DNA of 64,000 bases from Glycomyces sp. YM15. Its GTDB lineage: Bacteria; Actinomycetota; Actinomycetes; Mycobacteriales; Micromonosporaceae. Location of the stretch: assembly GCF_016918015.1 (NCBI RefSeq), contig NZ_JAERMK010000007.1, positions 85,839 to 149,838 of the forward strand, in the 5' to 3' direction. Positions 17,504 to 46,443 of this stretch are shown here, piece by piece. How positions within the stretch are numbered: position 1 is the first letter of the stretch; each line of letters starts with the position of its first letter. Made by a program: the position numbers and the translations under genes. A model generated the notes under the pieces. That model was not told where the DNA came from, searched no databases, and saw only the letters and a list, made by a program, of their open reading frames with translations.

Positions 17504-17630
17504 CTCCACGTCCCTTCACGATGCGTCCCAAGGGCGAAGCCTACGCGTCTGCGCGATCCTGCGAGGCGGTTCGGGCCTGGGGGCGGCCGTGCCGTGGTTG
17601 TGCGGCGGCATTGCGGTCCTGAATGGCCGA

Positions 17631-17658
17631 GGTCAAACCTGGCAGCGATGGGGAGGTG
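17631..17658 (+). repeat. single copy of the GGTTCAA...GGCRGCGA repeat family
   Basis: The segment GGTCAAACCTGGCAGCGATG, followed by GGGAGG, matches the core of the units at 43056-43355 in the same orientation. Confidence 0.5.
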
Positions 17659-18502
17659 GATGGGTGGGGTGGGTTGGTCGGGTGGCGGGTGTGGTTTGGG
17701 TTGGGGCGCAGCGAGACTGGTCGGATTCAGGGTGCGGAATATGAGGAGGTTCTCCACCTGTGGGTGATGACAGTCGGGGGCTGTATGGGGGACAATTGAG
17801 GTACGTACAGGGACAGGAAACTGGTACAGGTGTCGGGGTAGGTGTAAGCAGACTACGACAAGCCTCTGGCCGATCCGACAAACCGACTTGTTTCGAGGCG
17901 ACGACCCGGTAAGCCAGGGTGGTCCTCCGCTGGAGGCGTCCGATCTCACCCCCGTGCCATCGCCCGCAGCTGTCCGCGCCCCCGATGGGCCGTGACTGGG
18001 TGGACGATCCTAGTTGGGATCACCCCAACCAGAAGGCGATGCCGTACCGACGGCATACGCGATCCGAGCACGACCCGCCAGCGTCAGCGGTGAGGCCACA
18101 CCGAGCGAATAGAGGACTCGGTACGGCGACACCGCAAGCACGTCCATGGCGAGCACCACCCCGTCCCGGCAGCGCCGCGCCCGCAAGCCCGCGCGACTGC
18201 AGGACGGATCCCAGGAACGGCAAGCGATCCTCGGGAGGCGAAACCGCCACCGGCATCCACCCGGCATCCACCCGGGCAAGCCACCGGAATCCGCCGGGAG
18301 GCCGCACCGCTCCCTCAGGGACGGTAGGCACCAGCACGCGTCCCCGGCAGGGACGGCGCGCGGCCAGGCGAAAGCCGAAGGGCCGGAACCGGAAGCCGAA
18401 GCAAGACCAGCAGGGCCAGCAGGGCCAGCAGGGCCAGCGAGGGAAGCAAGTAGAGCAGCGGGAAGGAGGCGACACAGGCGCATGAGGACCACGACCATGC
18501 AC

Positions 18503-18538
18503 ATGGACATGGACATGGACATGGACATGGACATGGAC
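18503..18538. repeat. (ATGGAC)6 hexamer array
   Basis: Six exact tandem copies of ATGGAC. A length change by whole units would not shift any reading frame. No gene around it could be confirmed. Confidence 0.9.
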
Positions 18539-18690
18539 AAGAGCGCAACCGAGCCGAACTCGGCGGCTGACGGCTCCCGTGCCGCCGACCGCCCCGCCGC
18601 TGCGGCATCAGGCCGGACCCACCCAGCCCCCGACCGGAGGCGACCACCGGCCCCCGCTTCGGCGACACACCCCCGGACCACCGCCTACCC

Positions 18691-18960
18691 TTCCCTCGCT
18701 GCCGGTTTGCACCTCGCTCCAAAGACGACCCCGGCCCCGGAGACGGAGCCTTAGGCGCTACCCCGCGTTTCCGTCGCTGCCAGTTCGAACCCCGACCGAA
18801 CCTCCGCCCGCCGACCCCGAACACGGGCCCTCAAGTGATACCCCGCGTTCCTTTTGTCGCTGGATTGAACCCGGGCCGAATCTCCGCCAGGCCCCGGGCA
18901 CCGGGCCTCCGGTTCCTTCCGGCCGCACCCGTCGCCGCAAGATTGAAGCTCGCCCGAGAC
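18691..18960 (-). repeat. tandem array of four degenerate ~75-83 bp repeats
   Basis: Four units, with cores near 18691, 18769, 18851 and 18925, each read TTCC(n)TCGCTGCC(n)GTTYGAACC on the plus strand. Two of the cores are directly preceded by TACCCCGCGTT. On the minus strand this is the same core as the array at 43056-43355. It ends just before the 3' end of the secreted lipase gene, so it is transcribed, if at all, as that gene's tail. Confidence 0.65.
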
Positions 18961-19006
18961 GTCGGCCGATCTCGGCCGCGCGCCTCCAGGCGAGCTTCAT
19001 CGTTCC

Positions 19007-40935: not shown

Positions 40936-42711
40936 TCACTCGTACGAGAGACCGTGGCCGAAGCCGAACAGGACCGATTCGGGGTCGTCGGCGCGGGGGA
41001 TGTCGACGGGCAGCTTCCCCTGCGGGGCAAGATGGCCGAGCACGACCGCGACGGCCGATTCGAGCCCGTCCGCCGAGTACGAGTAGGTCGCGAGGTAGGC
41101 GTTCACGGCTTCGGTGAGGTGCGCGATGTCGTACGGGTTCCGGACACCGAGGGCCACTACGGGCACGCCCGTCGCCGCGAGCGCATCGACGAGGTCCACT
41201 TGGGCGGGGTTGGCGCCGACCCCGTTGGTGCTCACCACGATGAAGCCCTTGCCGTCCGCGGCGGCGACGGCGGCGTCGATCTGCGCCGGGGTCGGGGCGA
41301 TCCCGGTGACGACGCGGGTGGGGGTGAAGCCGCGCTTGGTGAACTCGGCGGTGAGCAGGTTCGTGGTGGTCTCGCCCCAGCCGGTCACGAGCAGCGGTCC
41401 GCCGTCGGTGGGGATCGGGAGGGTGCCGTCGTTCTGGACGAGTGTCGTGGTCCGGTCCGAGAGGGACTGGGCCGCTTCGAGATGCGCGGCGGTGCCGACG
41501 ATCGCGGGGATCTCGTCAGGGTCGGCGTACGGGTCGTCGTACAGTCCGAGCCGGTACTTGAGTCCGAGGATGCGCGTCACGGACTGGTCGATGCGCTGCT
41601 CGGTGAGCTCGCCCGCCGCGACGGCGGCGAGCACCGCGTTGTACGCCAGGTCCAGGTCCACGGGCATGAGCAGCATGTCGATCCCGGCCTGCAGCGCCAG
41701 CACCGGGATCCGGTCGTCGCCGTAGCCTTCACGCACGCCTTCCATGGCGAGCGAGTCGGTGACGATGACGCCGTCGTAGCCCAGTTCTTCGCGCAGCAGC
41801 CCGGTGAGGATCGGCTTCGAGAGGGTGGCGGGCGTCAGGGTCGGGTCGAGGGCGGGGAACTGAATGTGGGCGCTCATGATCGCTCCGACCCCCGCGTCGA
41901 TCGCGGCTCGGAACGGCGGTGCGTCGACCTCCTGCCACTCCTCGTAGGTGTGGTCGATCTGCGGCAGGTCGGTGTGGCTGTCGTCCTCGGTGTCACCGTG
42001 CCCGGGGAAGTGCTTCACGGTGGCCGCGAGGTCGCCCCGGGCCTGGTAGCCCTCGACCTGGGCGGCGGCGAACCCGGCGACATGCGCGGCGTCGGAGCCG
42101 AAGGAGCGCACGCCGATCACCGGGTTGGCCGGGTTCACGTTGACGTCCGCGTCCGGCGCGAAGTTCACGTTGAGGCCCATCGCGCGCAGCTCGGTGCCGC
42201 TGATGACGGCCGCTTCGTAGGCGGTGGTCGTGTCGTGGGTCGCGCCGAGCGCCATCGCGCCGGGCAGCTGCGTCGCGGGCGCGGTGATGCGCACGACGAG
42301 GCCGTGCTCCTGGTCGGTGGCGATCAGCAGCGGCTCGCCGTCCGCTGTGGACGCGGCCTGGAGCCCGTTGGAGAGGCCCGTGATCTGGTCCGGGTCGGCC
42401 ACATTGTTCGACCAGGCGAAGTAGATGATGCCGCCCACCTTGTAGGCGGCGATGAGCTCCGCGGCGTTGTTCACGCCGTGCGTCTCCTGGTTCTTGGCGA
42501 CGTCGGCGGGGTCGCTCGTGTCGGCCGTGCGCCCGTAGGCGTAGACGGTGAAGAGCTGGCCGACCTTCTCCTCGAGGGTCATGGCCTTCAAACGGCGCTT
42601 GACGAACCGCTTCTCGCTCGAGGCGCCACCGGCTTGCGCGGGGATCGCGGTGGCGGCGGCCGCGGCGGCGCCGAGGGCGGCTGCGAGCACGGTCCGGCGG
42701 GGATGCGTCAT
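40936..42711 (-). CDS. nagZ: secreted GH3 beta-N-acetylglucosaminidase, NagZ-like
   Basis: A 591-residue exported GH3 enzyme (leader MTHPRRTVLAAALGAA...PAQA). It has the NagZ hallmark KHFPGHGDTEDDSHTDLP, whose Asp-His dyad replaces the usual acid/base, and nucleophile Asp in GVIVTDSLAMEGV. A C-terminal (alpha/beta) GH3_C domain follows as in Bacillus NagZ (YbbD). It would release GlcNAc from murein chains. GGAGGAG precedes the ATG. It is the first gene of the trio with NamZ-like and AmiE-like proteins. Confidence 0.9.
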   Translation of the reverse strand: MTHPRRTVLAAALGAAAAAATAIPAQAGGASSEKRFVKRRLKAMTLEEKVGQLFTVYAYGRTADTSDPADVAKNQETHGVNNAAELIAAYKVGGIIYFAWSNNVADPDQITGLSNGLQAASTADGEPLLIATDQEHGLVVRITAPATQLPGAMALGATHDTTTAYEAAVISGTELRAMGLNVNFAPDADVNVNPANPVIGVRSFGSDAAHVAGFAAAQVEGYQARGDLAATVKHFPGHGDTEDDSHTDLPQIDHTYEEWQEVDAPPFRAAIDAGVGAIMSAHIQFPALDPTLTPATLSKPILTGLLREELGYDGVIVTDSLAMEGVREGYGDDRIPVLALQAGIDMLLMPVDLDLAYNAVLAAVAAGELTEQRIDQSVTRILGLKYRLGLYDDPYADPDEIPAIVGTAAHLEAAQSLSDRTTTLVQNDGTLPIPTDGGPLLVTGWGETTTNLLTAEFTKRGFTPTRVVTGIAPTPAQIDAAVAAADGKGFIVVSTNGVGANPAQVDLVDALAATGVPVVALGVRNPYDIAHLTEAVNAYLATYSYSADGLESAVAVVLGHLAPQGKLPVDIPRADDPESVLFGFGHGLSYE

Positions 42712-42783
42712 GGGCTCCTCCAGTAAGGCGCGGGGGATCGGGTGGCGGTTTTGACCTACTGGCCCGATCGGCTCATACTGGCA

Positions 42784-42823
42784 GAAAACTTCAAGTGAAG
42801 GCAAGACTACGGAGAATATTTTC
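42784..42823 (-). promoter_or_regulatory. control region of the murein-hydrolase operon
   Basis: GAAAACTTC (42784-42792) and a near-palindrome GAGAATATTTTC (42812-42823) lie 70-110 bp upstream of the GH3 start. On the minus strand a possible -35 TTGCCT and -10 CAGTAT bracket the first motif. The peptide-transporter operon has a similar GAAAGTTTTC before its promoter. A shared regulator, perhaps MurR/RpiR-like, is inference; no such gene is in the window. Confidence 0.4.
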
Positions 42824-43055
42824 AGATGATGTTCAGGCGAGGTCCGCTTCGTCCAATCGGAAGGTCCCGGCGTCGGCAGGGCATGTCCGAGAGGGCCTTC
42901 CAAGTCGAGTTGTCCAGGTCGAGAATGCAACGGCACGGTGCGACATCAGCGTAAGGTCGGCTTCGCAGATCCTTGGCAGCGATCAGACCTGTCGCACCTC
43001 TCCGGGCGTGGAGTGGCGCGGGCAGCGCTGCGGTCCCGAGGTTCGATACCGATGC

Positions 43056-43355
43056 GGTTCAAGCGGGCAGCGATGAAGAGGTGAGGGTGGGACCGGGTCC
43101 TGTTCCGGCCCCCGGCCGGATTGGGCCGGGGTTCAGGCCGGCGGCGATGAAGAGGTGAGGGAGGGGTCGGGTCTGCCTCCGGCTTCCCTGCCTGATCGGG
43201 CTCGGGGTCCAGGCTGGCGGCGACGATGGGGTGTATGGGGGCTTGGGTTCGTCTCCGGCCTCTCGGCCTGGTCGGGTCGGGGTTCAGTCCGGCTGCGATG
43301 GTGGGGTGTGTGGCTGGGGTGGGGTGGGTTTCCTGGTGTGGGCATGCTGAGGGGC
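43056..43355 (+). repeat. tandem array of four ~75-bp degenerate repeats
   Basis: Units start at 43056, 43130, 43206 and 43281, each with GGTTCAGGCCGGCGGCGATG-like cores followed by a G-rich run and a CCTCCGGCCT-like end. The period is 74-76 bp. The last three units overlap the Pro/Arg-rich tail of the HNH gene on the other strand. A weaker fifth unit may follow near 43372. Confidence 0.75.
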
Positions 43356-45106
43356 CCGGCCCCTGTTGGGGTTCGGGCTGCGCTGCGTGGTGTGTGCGGC
43401 GCTTCCCCCAGCAGTCGCCTGCTGGGGCAGCCTAAGAACGGCGGGTCGCCGTAGTCGGCTGTCGCTGACCTTGCAGCTGTCGCTGTCGATGCCGGTGGTG
43501 CGGGCGCCGCGACTGCTACTTCGGCGCTTGAGGCGTCGCGTATGCCGAACGTCGCTCGGCATTTCGCTTTCGCCGCTCGCATGGCTTTGATGGCCCGGTC
43601 GCGGTCGATGGCCTCAGCGATGCCGTCGAGGTCGGGCTTCAAGGTCTCGGACCATTCGGTGCGGTAGAGCCCGGTGGGGAACACGTCCCAGTCCGAGCCT
43701 GCATGCTCGGCGTCCATGTCGGCATCGGTGCGCCAGTCGGCGCACCCGCACCCGGCCGAGCCACCGGCCGAGGCACCGGCGGTGCCGCCCTGGCCTTGGC
43801 CGCCTCGGAGGCCGTGGAGGCCTTCGTGCCCTTCGTGGCCGTCGTGGTGGGTGATGATCGCCTGACCGGGGCCGGTCTTCTCCACCGACCAGCCCGGGGT
43901 GTGGATGCGTCCGTGATGGAACCGGCACAGCAGGATCAGATTCTCCGCGACCGTGGGGCCGCCGTCGGCCCAGTGGGTGATGTGGTGCGCCTCGGTCCAG
44001 GCGATGGGCCGGTCACAACCGTGCCAAGCGCACCCGCCTGGCTGCTCAAGCTCGAGCTTGCGTCGCAGGGCCGCGTTCGGCAGGCGCAGCGCCCGGCCCA
44101 GCTCGACCGCTTCCCCCTTGGCGTAGTTGAACACCGAGGGGATGACGAGGCCTTCGCAGGCCAGCAGCCGGGCCCGGGCGAGGGAGATCGGTTGGCCTTC
44201 CAGGAGGGGGAGGCGCCCGGTGTCCTTGCCCTGCAACGTCTCGATGTCGACGGTCAGGTCGAGGGTGGCGGTGTGCCCGTGGCGGGTCGCGGCCTGCGGG
44301 GAGGACCCGTACCCGGCCAGGAGCTGGTGGAGGGCCTCGGCGTGGCGGTTGGCCTGCGGGGGCAGCAGACCTTCAGCGTCGGTCTCGTCCTGGCGGGGTG
44401 GTGGGCAGGCGGTCTGCAGGTACTTGTCGAGCATCCGTCCGGTCGCATTCGAGAGGTGCCCTTCCAGCGCCCACATGCCATTGCCGCACTCGATCAACTC
44501 CAGGCGCTGCATCGACTGCTCGCCGAGCCCATCAAGGAGCTCAGTCTCTCCGGCGATCGCGGCCCACAGCCCCTCGAGGTGACGTTGCAGGTCCTTGAAG
44601 GAAGCATGAGCGCAGTACTCGACCACCATCGCCTCCGGCGTCGCGCAGAGGGTCTCGGGGTCGAAGGGGGAGACGACCGGGGCGGTGAAAGGAGTGCGGG
44701 CGAACAGGCGCATGGCCGGGGTCTGGTCGAGCTGGCGGACGGCGTAGGCGACCTGGTCAATCCGGGCCTGCCCCGACACCGCCGCCGAAGCAAGAAGACG
44801 GAACTTCCCCGACAGCCGCGCGATGGCGGCGATGGCGCTGGCGGTGTTGAAGGTGAAGTCGAACTGGGACAGGAGGAGGTCGCGGAGGGCGGAGAACCCG
44901 AACTCGGAGCGGTGCAGGTTCGCCTCCTTCATCGCGATCACCGCAGACAGGACCTGGGCGTGAAAGGCGTTGATCCCCGCGGCGGCCTCATCGAGGGTCG
45001 AGCGGATCGCCGCAGCCTGGGAGCGGCGGTCAGGGGAAGCGGAGAGGAGCGAGGCGGCGGGGAGGACCGGAGCGACCGGGCTGGTGTGGGTGTTGCATGC
45101 GGCCAT
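43133..45106 (-). CDS. 13E12-family protein (DUF222 plus HNH endonuclease domain)
   Basis: A 657-residue protein. The N-terminal DUF222 region (about 30-330) precedes a short HNH nuclease domain CAWHGCDRPIAWTEAHHITHW...LCRFHHGRIH (about 390-435). A low-complexity Gly/His-rich linker and a long Pro/Arg/Thr-rich tail follow. The last 70 or so residues are encoded by the tandem repeat array, so the tail is probably not a folded domain. These multi-copy actinobacterial genes behave like mobile or repeat-associated nucleases. GGAGG lies 8 bp before ATG 45106. The gene is bounded by inverted repeat copies and separates two murein-salvage operons. Confidence 0.88.
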   Translation of the reverse strand: MAACNTHTSPVAPVLPAASLLSASPDRRSQAAAIRSTLDEAAAGINAFHAQVLSAVIAMKEANLHRSEFGFSALRDLLLSQFDFTFNTASAIAAIARLSGKFRLLASAAVSGQARIDQVAYAVRQLDQTPAMRLFARTPFTAPVVSPFDPETLCATPEAMVVEYCAHASFKDLQRHLEGLWAAIAGETELLDGLGEQSMQRLELIECGNGMWALEGHLSNATGRMLDKYLQTACPPPRQDETDAEGLLPPQANRHAEALHQLLAGYGSSPQAATRHGHTATLDLTVDIETLQGKDTGRLPLLEGQPISLARARLLACEGLVIPSVFNYAKGEAVELGRALRLPNAALRRKLELEQPGGCAWHGCDRPIAWTEAHHITHWADGGPTVAENLILLCRFHHGRIHTPGWSVEKTGPGQAIITHHDGHEGHEGLHGLRGGQGQGGTAGASAGGSAGCGCADWRTDADMDAEHAGSDWDVFPTGLYRTEWSETLKPDLDGIAEAIDRDRAIKAMRAAKAKCRATFGIRDASSAEVAVAAPAPPASTATAARSATADYGDPPFLGCPSRRLLGEAPHTPRSAARTPTGAGPLSMPTPGNPPHPSHTPHHRSRTEPRPDQAERPETNPSPHTPHRRRQPGPRARSGREAGGRPDPSLTSSSPPA

Positions 45107-45519
45107 GGGTCTCGCCTCCTCACCGATTCTCGAATGTCCTGCCTGTTTTCGGTTCCTTGTTCGTGCTTCAATGATGACAGAATGTTGTAGCGGTGTCATC
45201 ACCCAACCGGGTGAACATTCCATGAGGGACACTCACGCCCCGCCCCCACTTCGCCTGGGACGCAGGGAAACCGGCAGATCATCGGTGCCAGGCTCCGCCC
45301 CGGGTGGATCGCTACCGGGCAGCCGCACCGCACACCTCACCACCATGCGACCCTTTTGTCGCCGCCCGCTTGAACCTCGGGTTAGTGCGCTCTGGCGGCC
45401 GCACTGTGACCCCGCACTTCAGCCAAGTGATGCTATGAAAGCGCAGGCAGACCTCACGGGCGATCCCGAATGAATCGAGCCGGAACCGTTCAGCGCATCT
45501 CGATTCTCTGACGGTAGTG
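45107..45519. other. gap holding HNH promoter side and right boundary repeat
   Basis: 412 bp without a gene. It contains the region upstream of the HNH gene, with a CGGTGTCATCA / TGATGACAG-like inverted pair near 45170-45200, and the single repeat copy at 45350-45376. Nothing else is recognisable. Confidence 0.4.
45350..45376 (-). repeat. inverted single copy of the repeat core, right boundary of HNH cassette
   Basis: The minus strand reads GGTTCAAGCGGGCGGCGACA then AAAGGGT. Its first 13 bases are identical to the unit at 43056, with most of the next 14 also matching. Orientation is opposite to the left array, so the two resemble terminal inverted repeats of about 27 bp. Confidence 0.65.
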
Positions 45520-46443
45520 CTAGCGCAGTGCCGGCTCCGCGAATTCGAGAGTCCCCGCATCGGCGTCCAAGGTCGCCTTGAGCCCCAAGGGAATCGTGAG
45601 CGCACCGGCGCAGTGCCCGAATCCGAACTCCTCCACCACCGGGATGGCCCTCCCGAAGAACTGGTCGTACAGCACCTCGCGGACCTCCTCATACGGCCCG
45701 CAGTCGACCCACGAGCCGAGCACGACCCCGGCGATCCCGTCGAAGTATCCGGCCCGCCGCAGCTGCGTCAGCGCCCGGTCGATCCGGTACGGCGCTTCGC
45801 CGATGTCCTCCAGGAGCAGCAGTCCGCCCGCCACGTCCCGCCGATGGTGGAGCGTGCCCGCCTCGGCTGCCAGGAGCGTCAGCGTCCCGCCGAAGGTCAC
45901 GCCGGTGGCCGTGCCGCCCCGCATCGTCGTGGCGGTGGCCGACGCGATCCATTGGGCCCGTTCAGGTTCGAACAGGGCCAGCCGCAGGTGCTCCTGCACC
46001 ACGGGATTCTCGGCGAACTGCGTCCAGCTCGGCATGGGACCGTGGATCGAGGCCGTACCCAGTTCCAGCGCGACCGCCTCGTGCACCGCGGTCATGTCGC
46101 TGAAGCCGACGAACGCCTTCGGTTCGACCGAGGCCAGGGCCTCCCAGTCGACGTGCTCGATCATCCGCTGCGAGCCGTAGCCGCCCCGCGAGGCGATCAC
46201 GGCCGCGAACGACGGGTCGAGCCAGGCCTTCGCGAAGCCGACGGCCCGGTCGCCGTCCGCCCCGGCCAGGTACCCCGTGGTCGCAGCCGCACCGGGCATC
46301 ACGACCGGCTCGAGCCCCCAGCCGCGCAGCACCTCGAGACCGGCGTCCAGGCCCCCTGGAGGGAACGGGCTCGCTGGGGAGACGATCGCGACCCGGTCGC
46401 CCGGGACGAGCCGCCTCGGGCGGCGCAGCGGTTCGAGGCTCAC
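45520..46443 (-). CDS. LD-carboxypeptidase, peptidase S66 (LdcA-like)
   Basis: A 307-residue cytoplasmic enzyme without a leader. S66 features are present: RGGYGSQRMIEHVDWEAL, nucleophile Ser in FVGFSDMTAVH (about residue 114), Glu in GGLLLLEDIGE and His in EFGFGHC. These enzymes remove terminal D-Ala from tetrapeptides after murein recycling. ATG overlaps the S9 peptidase stop by 4 bp. It is the last gene of the transporter-peptidase operon, so it acts on imported murein peptides. Confidence 0.9.
   Translation of the reverse strand: MSLEPLRRPRRLVPGDRVAIVSPASPFPPGGLDAGLEVLRGWGLEPVVMPGAAATTGYLAGADGDRAVGFAKAWLDPSFAAVIASRGGYGSQRMIEHVDWEALASVEPKAFVGFSDMTAVHEAVALELGTASIHGPMPSWTQFAENPVVQEHLRLALFEPERAQWIASATATTMRGGTATGVTFGGTLTLLAAEAGTLHHRRDVAGGLLLLEDIGEAPYRIDRALTQLRRAGYFDGIAGVVLGSWVDCGPYEEVREVLYDQFFGRAIPVVEEFGFGHCAGALTIPLGLKATLDADAGTLEFAEPALR

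Follow-up and report, generated by a model that had tools for sequence, protein, structure and literature searches.

The DUF222-HNH gene of Glycomyces sp. YM15 is part of a mobile element whose two ends are arrays of 75-bp units in opposite orientations. The mobility of this HNH element is well supported. The element occurs in multiple copies that have their ends in common and repeat one layout, it has empty sites in related genomes, its protein is under selection, and a partner family carries the same ends. Binding of the units and mobilisation of the element are functions that we infer for the HNH protein.

The HNH gene lies in an insertion that congeners lack

The window, by which we mean the complete stretch of 64,000 nucleotides that was analysed, lies on contig C60 of the 5.67-Mb draft genome of this strain (G000). 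Within it, the DUF222-HNH gene has a GH3 glycosidase gene (nagZ-like, 40939-42708) as its left neighbour and the LD-carboxypeptidase gene ldcA (45523-46443) as its right neighbour (Table 1). An earlier note on this DNA had placed a transporter operon on the right-hand side, but ldcA and then an S9 peptidase gene are found there instead. Antisense ORFs are present inside the HNH element.

Table 1. Coordinates of the features of the HNH element and of the second element in the window
Feature	Position	Strand	Basis
Insertion (DNA without counterpart in congeners), approximate limits	42878-45519		Both flanks versus congener empty sites
Duplicated ldcA 3′ end, left copy, with 14 codons and the stop codon: ADAGTFRLDEADLA and stop (45-bp extent and codons are our reading of sequence and alignment)	42833-42877	-	Alignment to L070-L073
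Right copy of the duplicated segment, the present ldcA 3′ end: ADAGTLEFAEPALR and stop (extent and codons read likewise)	45520-45564	-	Congener flank comparison
Array of 75-bp units, starting at 43056, 43130, 43206 and 43281 (core only)	43056-43307	+	
DUF222-HNH gene, 657 aa from the assumed ATG at 45106; stop at 43133-43135	43136-45106	-	ORF 43133-45232
HNH motif (invariant H374, H375, H378, N389, H398, H402)	43901-43990	-	Alignment
Single inverted unit of the 75-bp type, 5′ side of the HNH gene	45314-45376	-	
5′ region separating the start codon from the terminal unit; related in sequence to the second family	45138-45316	-	
Second, HNH-less element; units at 17631 (+), 18713 and 18791 (-)	17556-19003	-	

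Fourteen ldcA loci, taken from 21 genomes of the same genus, were compared with the window. The HNH protein had no match in any of the 14, the array was likewise absent, and nagZ adjoined ldcA in 13 of them; at the remaining locus (L081), nagZ was not found within the stretch. Since the congener sites lack both the gene and the array, the arrays and the gene arrived together. None of the 29 empty-site stretches scanned contained a unit at seven mismatches or fewer, and the idea that the repeats pre-existed at the site was rejected on this ground. The earlier note had named the retention of both repeats in relatives without the HNH gene as a finding that would speak against a cassette, and such relatives do not retain them. 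Isolated unit matches with eight mismatches occurred in seven of the 14 ldcA stretches, and element-like nucleotide matches (50-159 bp, E values of 3e-5 to 0.005), which were taken for chance, occurred outside the nagZ-ldcA gap in five of the 14 loci. Near-gapless empty sites were also detected for the copies at L010, L020/L011 and L017/L022.

The inserted DNA is larger than the interval of 43056-45376 that the earlier note had drawn between two 27-bp repeats (Table 1). For the copies in general, homology with congeners is in most cases regained 45-230 bp beyond the first unit and 9-170 bp beyond the last one (approximately 270 and 700 bp at L019/L016), which means that the inserted DNA includes degenerate outer stretches. 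At L016, about 700 bp to the right of the HNH element (1276-1960) match neither the element nor the empty sites of G014 and G002, and these may represent another insertion.

With one setting applied to all sites, the flanks of the window insertion overlapped by 38-43 bp on six of seven congeners and missed each other by 15 bp on the seventh (L077), the 3′ end of ldcA being present at both flanks (38-45 bp). The corresponding values were 32 and -6 bp at L010, -4 and 0 bp at L020/L011, 2 and -10 bp at L017/L022 (where two additional congeners displayed gaps of 146 and 721 bp), -354 bp at L013, and -81 and -379 bp at L019/L016. A duplication repeatable across congeners was seen only at the window (six of seven), while L010 displayed one in one of two congeners and L020/L011 and L017/L022 in none; the flanks in this comparison are too diverged for duplications of a few bases to be visible. 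When flanks were compared directly with each other, 0 of 25 copies, the window included, rose above the between-copy null. The search for target-site duplications suggested by the earlier note thus gave no general duplication across insertion sites, and such a duplication is not shown. A single 27-bp terminal inverted repeat with an ordinary target-site duplication was rejected as a description of the element, because its ends are arrays and the direct flank comparison revealed no such duplication.

The ends are inverted arrays of 75-bp units

The two 27-bp arms (43056-43082 and 45350-45376) pair at 22 of 27 positions; their first 13 bases are identical, as had been noted before. This pairing exceeds chance: five mismatches were observed against a shuffle minimum of nine, and none of 1,000 Markov shuffles of the 400 bp around the right arm reached seven or fewer. 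TRF confirmed the left tandem array (43056-43300, period 76, 3.3 copies). The earlier reading of the arms as terminal inverted repeats was correct as regards the inverted ends, but these ends consist of inverted tandem arrays of 75-bp units and not of a single 27-bp repeat. On both strands of the window, the left arm has eight matches at up to eight mismatches, itself included, which are located at 43056, 43130, 43206 and 43281 (+), 45376 (-), 17631 (+), and 18713 and 18791 (-). These eight are the ends of the HNH element and of a second element described below. The conserved core of the units reads GGTTCA..C.GGCAGCGAC....

The typical layout in G000 comprises tandem 75-bp units at the 3′ end of the element, in most cases two to eight of them, while the 5′ side has one to four inverted units. 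Among 22 copies from five genomes, the inverted 5′ unit was present in all 22 and an array on both sides in 18, at a threshold of nine mismatches that lets scattered background matches into these counts. The 3′ forward array was not found in four of these copies (L145, L147, L151 and L152) and was weak in L150. In G. amatae, the inverted units number up to four and the forward units up to six, and further named Glycomyces species display a similar layout. Two of the three copies of G. artemisiae (G010) had no recognised 3′ array. A sequence-only profile built from 31 units retrieved at least 55 units in G000, at least 59 in G014, at least 27 in G002 and none in G007, among at most 150 scored candidates per genome. 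Eight further congeners each had at least one unit, with one in G010 and one in G013 among the candidates scored. G007, in which no unit was found, is the only one of seven genomes searched that has just a 27-bp HNH match.

Inner units of the left array overlap the variable 3′ tail of the HNH reading frame. In the window, the C-terminal tail of the frame is encoded by these inner units (43133-43307), and tail length and sequence consequently differ among copies. When the units, of about 75 bp, were checked for hairpin palindromes, only a weak consensus fold was obtained (-4.6 kcal/mol, seven pairs), and single-strand fold z-scores of -1.5 to +0.9 for three units likewise indicated weak structure. 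A structured RNA was rejected, given this weak fold and the lack of any Rfam match at E ≤1 in 42700-45600.

Copies of the HNH element are grouped by species

When G000 was searched with positions 43000-45450, 25 matches were obtained. Besides the window copy, four complete ones (L002, L003, L005 and L006) extend from query base 40-68 to query base 2371-2379, that is, between both repeats. The main subfamily counts at least 11 copies, namely five complete ones, five half-copies (putatively paired by way of the congeners) and one unpaired half-copy, and three diverged copies (L023, L024 and L025) come in addition. Many matches stop where a contig stops, an expected outcome of draft assembly, in which similar copies collapse. 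At seven of the ten right ends compared, the homologous unit runs on for about 14 slightly varied bases beyond the right arm, which are absent from the window copy, L009 and L010; the outer end therefore lies slightly beyond position 45376, where the earlier note had set it. Its more general proposal of a bounded mobile cassette is borne out in substance by paralogues that stop at or near the repeats, by congener sites that are empty and without array, and by repeats that border other HNH copies in G000 and in other Glycomyces genomes.

In a tree built from 24 copies, a single branch sets the copies of each of three species apart from the others, with supports of 100/100 for G000, 85/91 for G006 and 71/87 for G014. 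Two insertion sites (loci A and B) are common to different species, yet the copies at these sites group by species. As insertion sites are shared between species, part of the copies must be old. For the clustering at the shared sites, gene conversion is favoured over sites that were hit twice, and the similarity of copies therefore does not date their insertions. In a preprint, REP13E12 loci are listed among the gene-conversion hotspots of M. tuberculosis (PMC13061034).

A second, gene-less family shares the ends

The second family is a repeat of 1.1-1.4 kb. In G000 it has at least 28 matches at E <1e-100, of which three lie at the start of a contig, in a scan that scored 40 of 174 candidates. 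About 25 copies are present in G000, one of which lies in the window (match 17731-18810); another one, L219 (C60:169602-170664), is located on the same contig outside the window. Among 22 copies examined, an inverted unit was found on the right in 21 and a forward unit on the left in 15, at up to seven mismatches and with four core variants, some of which were drawn from the copies under test; the background of the same scan was one match per 167,628 bases of congener loci. In L220 and L229, the inverted unit is situated about 360-400 bp beyond the second-family match. Eight places in G000 carry units away from HNH genes: three are at second-family ends, four are by partial second-family matches, and C29:344 remains.

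Furthermore, the first 240 bp of the second family resemble the 5′ end of the HNH element, from the terminal unit to the start codon, in six of six comparisons. Each of these scored above the best of 100 single-base shuffles on G-rich DNA, one of them barely (69 versus 64.5). At the site of the second element in the window, the flanks are adjacent without the element in G016 and G002, while G014 has partial diverged matches and only one flank was found in G006.

The second family is apparently non-coding. Five translated stretches had no match in Pfam, gap lengths did not come in threes (656, 889 and 522 for remainders 0, 1 and 2), and the synonymous share was 0.28-0.34 in all six frames, which is a weak test with frames set per ungapped block. 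Counting against a non-coding nature are the most recurrent ORF of at least 150 aa, which is kept in 13 of 21 copies, and the sorted mismatch-by-phase count of 22, 33 and 45%, for which there is no null. Altogether, the second family is a candidate non-autonomous partner of the HNH element.

The DUF222-HNH protein and its relatives

The HNH protein of the window matches PF02720 (DUF222; E 1.2e-7) and PF01844 (HNH; E 1.6e-6) in Pfam, both above the cut-offs. As in the 13E12/DUF222-HNH family, DUF222 is followed by a conserved HNH motif and the gene is repeated in the genome. An alignment of 26 proteins, among them ones from Rhodococcus, Kribbella and an Acidobacteria bin, shows no variation in the HNH residues, and of 47 loci scanned, 44 have the motif within an open frame. 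The dN/dS values of 0.08-0.20 for 12 pairs chosen among 13 sequences (391 aligned codons) show purifying selection on the HNH gene, both between copies and between species.

Only DUF222 and HNH were identified by Pfam, there was no NCBIfam match, and a known transposase domain was not found; in particular, Pfam detected neither an HUH (Y1) transposase nor a P-element-type transposase in the protein. The AlphaFold model of 497 residues was of moderate quality (mean pLDDT 69.7, pTM 0.38), and a fold search with the protein against the PDB gave no match at E 0.001. Hidden homology of DUF222 to a known enzyme was rejected, as PDB sequence and fold searches returned only weak HNH-type matches among the plausible ones. 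The same applies to a known defence protein (no PADLOC match) and to phage or plasmid cargo (no phage record matched, and one plasmid record, from Arthrobacter, did so at 8%).

Multi-copy DUF222-HNH genes of Rhodococcus rhodnii and Kribbella have a sharp 5′ edge, and no consistent inverted repeat was detected in eight aligned R. rhodnii loci, a comparison without null, or in four Kribbella loci judged by inspection only. The arrays would thus appear to be a trait of Glycomyces among the genera compared, and the defined boundary described in the earlier note holds for the Glycomyces copies, but is not shown for 13E12 genes in general. In L192-L204 (Kribbella and R. rhodnii), the gene copies begin sharply just upstream of the gene at a TGTCCACAG-like sequence or at TGTGGA[CT]AA, which we take to resemble a DnaA box.

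Discussion

We lean, with modest confidence, towards a transposon-like element that has inverted arrays of 75-bp units as its ends and is mobilised by its own DUF222-HNH nuclease. The nuclease would recognise the conserved core of the units and nick or cut at both arrays, upon which the DNA between them would be moved or copied into new sites. The gene-less family, having kept the same ends, would be moved along by the HNH nuclease, and after insertion the copies within a species would be homogenised by gene conversion. Speculatively, insertion might proceed by two separate nicks or be repair-mediated, and the combination of no regular short duplication with a long one at the window would fit this better than a classical DDE transposase. 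What speaks against this explanation is the lack of a consistent target-site duplication, the arrays not being seen in Rhodococcus and Kribbella, the gaps in the G010 arrays, and the old shared sites.

The gene-less family needs to be moved in trans in any case. Conceivably, though in our estimate rather improbably, the entire array-bounded element depends for its movement on an unlinked transposase or recombinase that acts in trans. The HNH gene would then be a passenger, or would serve only as a homing-like endonuclease, promoting gene conversion among the copies. The grouping of copies by species even at shared sites would suit this view, and the hotspots at REP13E12 loci mentioned above would suit a homing-like role. 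On the other hand, the purifying selection on the HNH gene across copies and species argues against mobilisation in trans, as does G007, where only a 27-bp HNH match and no units were detected. The eight places with units away from HNH genes could also be taken to mean that the units are an independent dispersed repeat, and that the HNH gene was inserted into, or became flanked by, pre-existing arrays. We give this very little credence, and it is already largely refuted: all of these places except C29:344 are at or beside second-family matches, the empty-site stretches contain no unit at up to seven mismatches, and the two-sided inverted layout recurs at many sites in several species.

The strong clustering within species, including at the two shared loci, is what would be expected if the copies were ancient duplicated chromosomal segments, gene-converted and immobile, with their absence in relatives due to loss. 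This appears highly improbable to us. All 14 congener ldcA loci lack the gene, 13 of them with close gene spacing, and loss would require many precise deletions that include both arrays; moreover, at many sites one species has the element while another has an empty site.

Insertion sequences and MITEs have terminal inverted repeats, empty sites and gene-less derivatives with the same ends. The Glycomyces element resembles such DNA transposons in its inverted ends, in its empty sites in relatives and in its gene-less derivatives, but neither a known transposase domain nor a regular short target-site duplication was found for it. In REPtrons, RAYT genes are flanked by inverted REPs, RAYTs being HUH enzymes and REPs short palindromic hairpins. 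Both systems have one gene flanked by a repeat in inverted orientation, and this repeat is also present at other places of the genome where the gene is missing, whereas the Glycomyces enzyme is an HNH protein and its units are weakly structured. Foldback and Galileo of Drosophila have variable numbers of units and non-autonomous copies. The Glycomyces element shares with them inverted ends made of tandem units; they are, however, eukaryotic, and the transposase of Galileo places it with the P element, while DUF222-HNH is the only gene recognised in the Glycomyces element. To our knowledge, no HNH nuclease acts as the sole transposase of such elements, and we know of no bacterial transposon in which an HNH nuclease is the sole mobilising enzyme on foldback-like tandem-unit ends. 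If our explanation is true, the HNH-driven element would accordingly be a kind of bacterial transposon without known precedent.

The mycobacterial REP13E12 repeats resemble the Glycomyces element in encoding a DUF222 and HNH protein, in being multi-copy and in having homogenised copies. They differ from it in that the inverted 75-bp arrays and the gene-less partner belong to the Glycomyces element and were not found in the accessible portions of the REP13E12 literature. More broadly, the literature searched, which lay mostly outside subscription journals and was available in part, yielded no description of array ends or of a gene-less partner for DUF222/13E12 genes. REP13E12 is described as a prophage attachment site in mycobacteria (PMC13061034, PMC2323391), and a 2026 preprint states that REP13E12 regions are still without a defined biological function (PMC13061034).

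The Glycomyces version has clear ends, empty sites and a gene-less partner, and makes the questions of a mobile element and of an HNH enzyme directly testable. These questions reach beyond the genus, as 48 of 119 genomes drawn from across the phylum contain DUF222 (PF02720), with up to 21 matches per genome. It is possible, if still short of probable, that bacterial DNA transposons include a new class with DUF222-HNH proteins as enzymes, in which a single HNH nuclease would act on inverted tandem-unit ends and move its own element together with a non-coding satellite family that is larger, the insertions having no short target duplication of fixed length. The mycobacterial REP13E12 repeats would then be relatives that lost the arrays or never had them.
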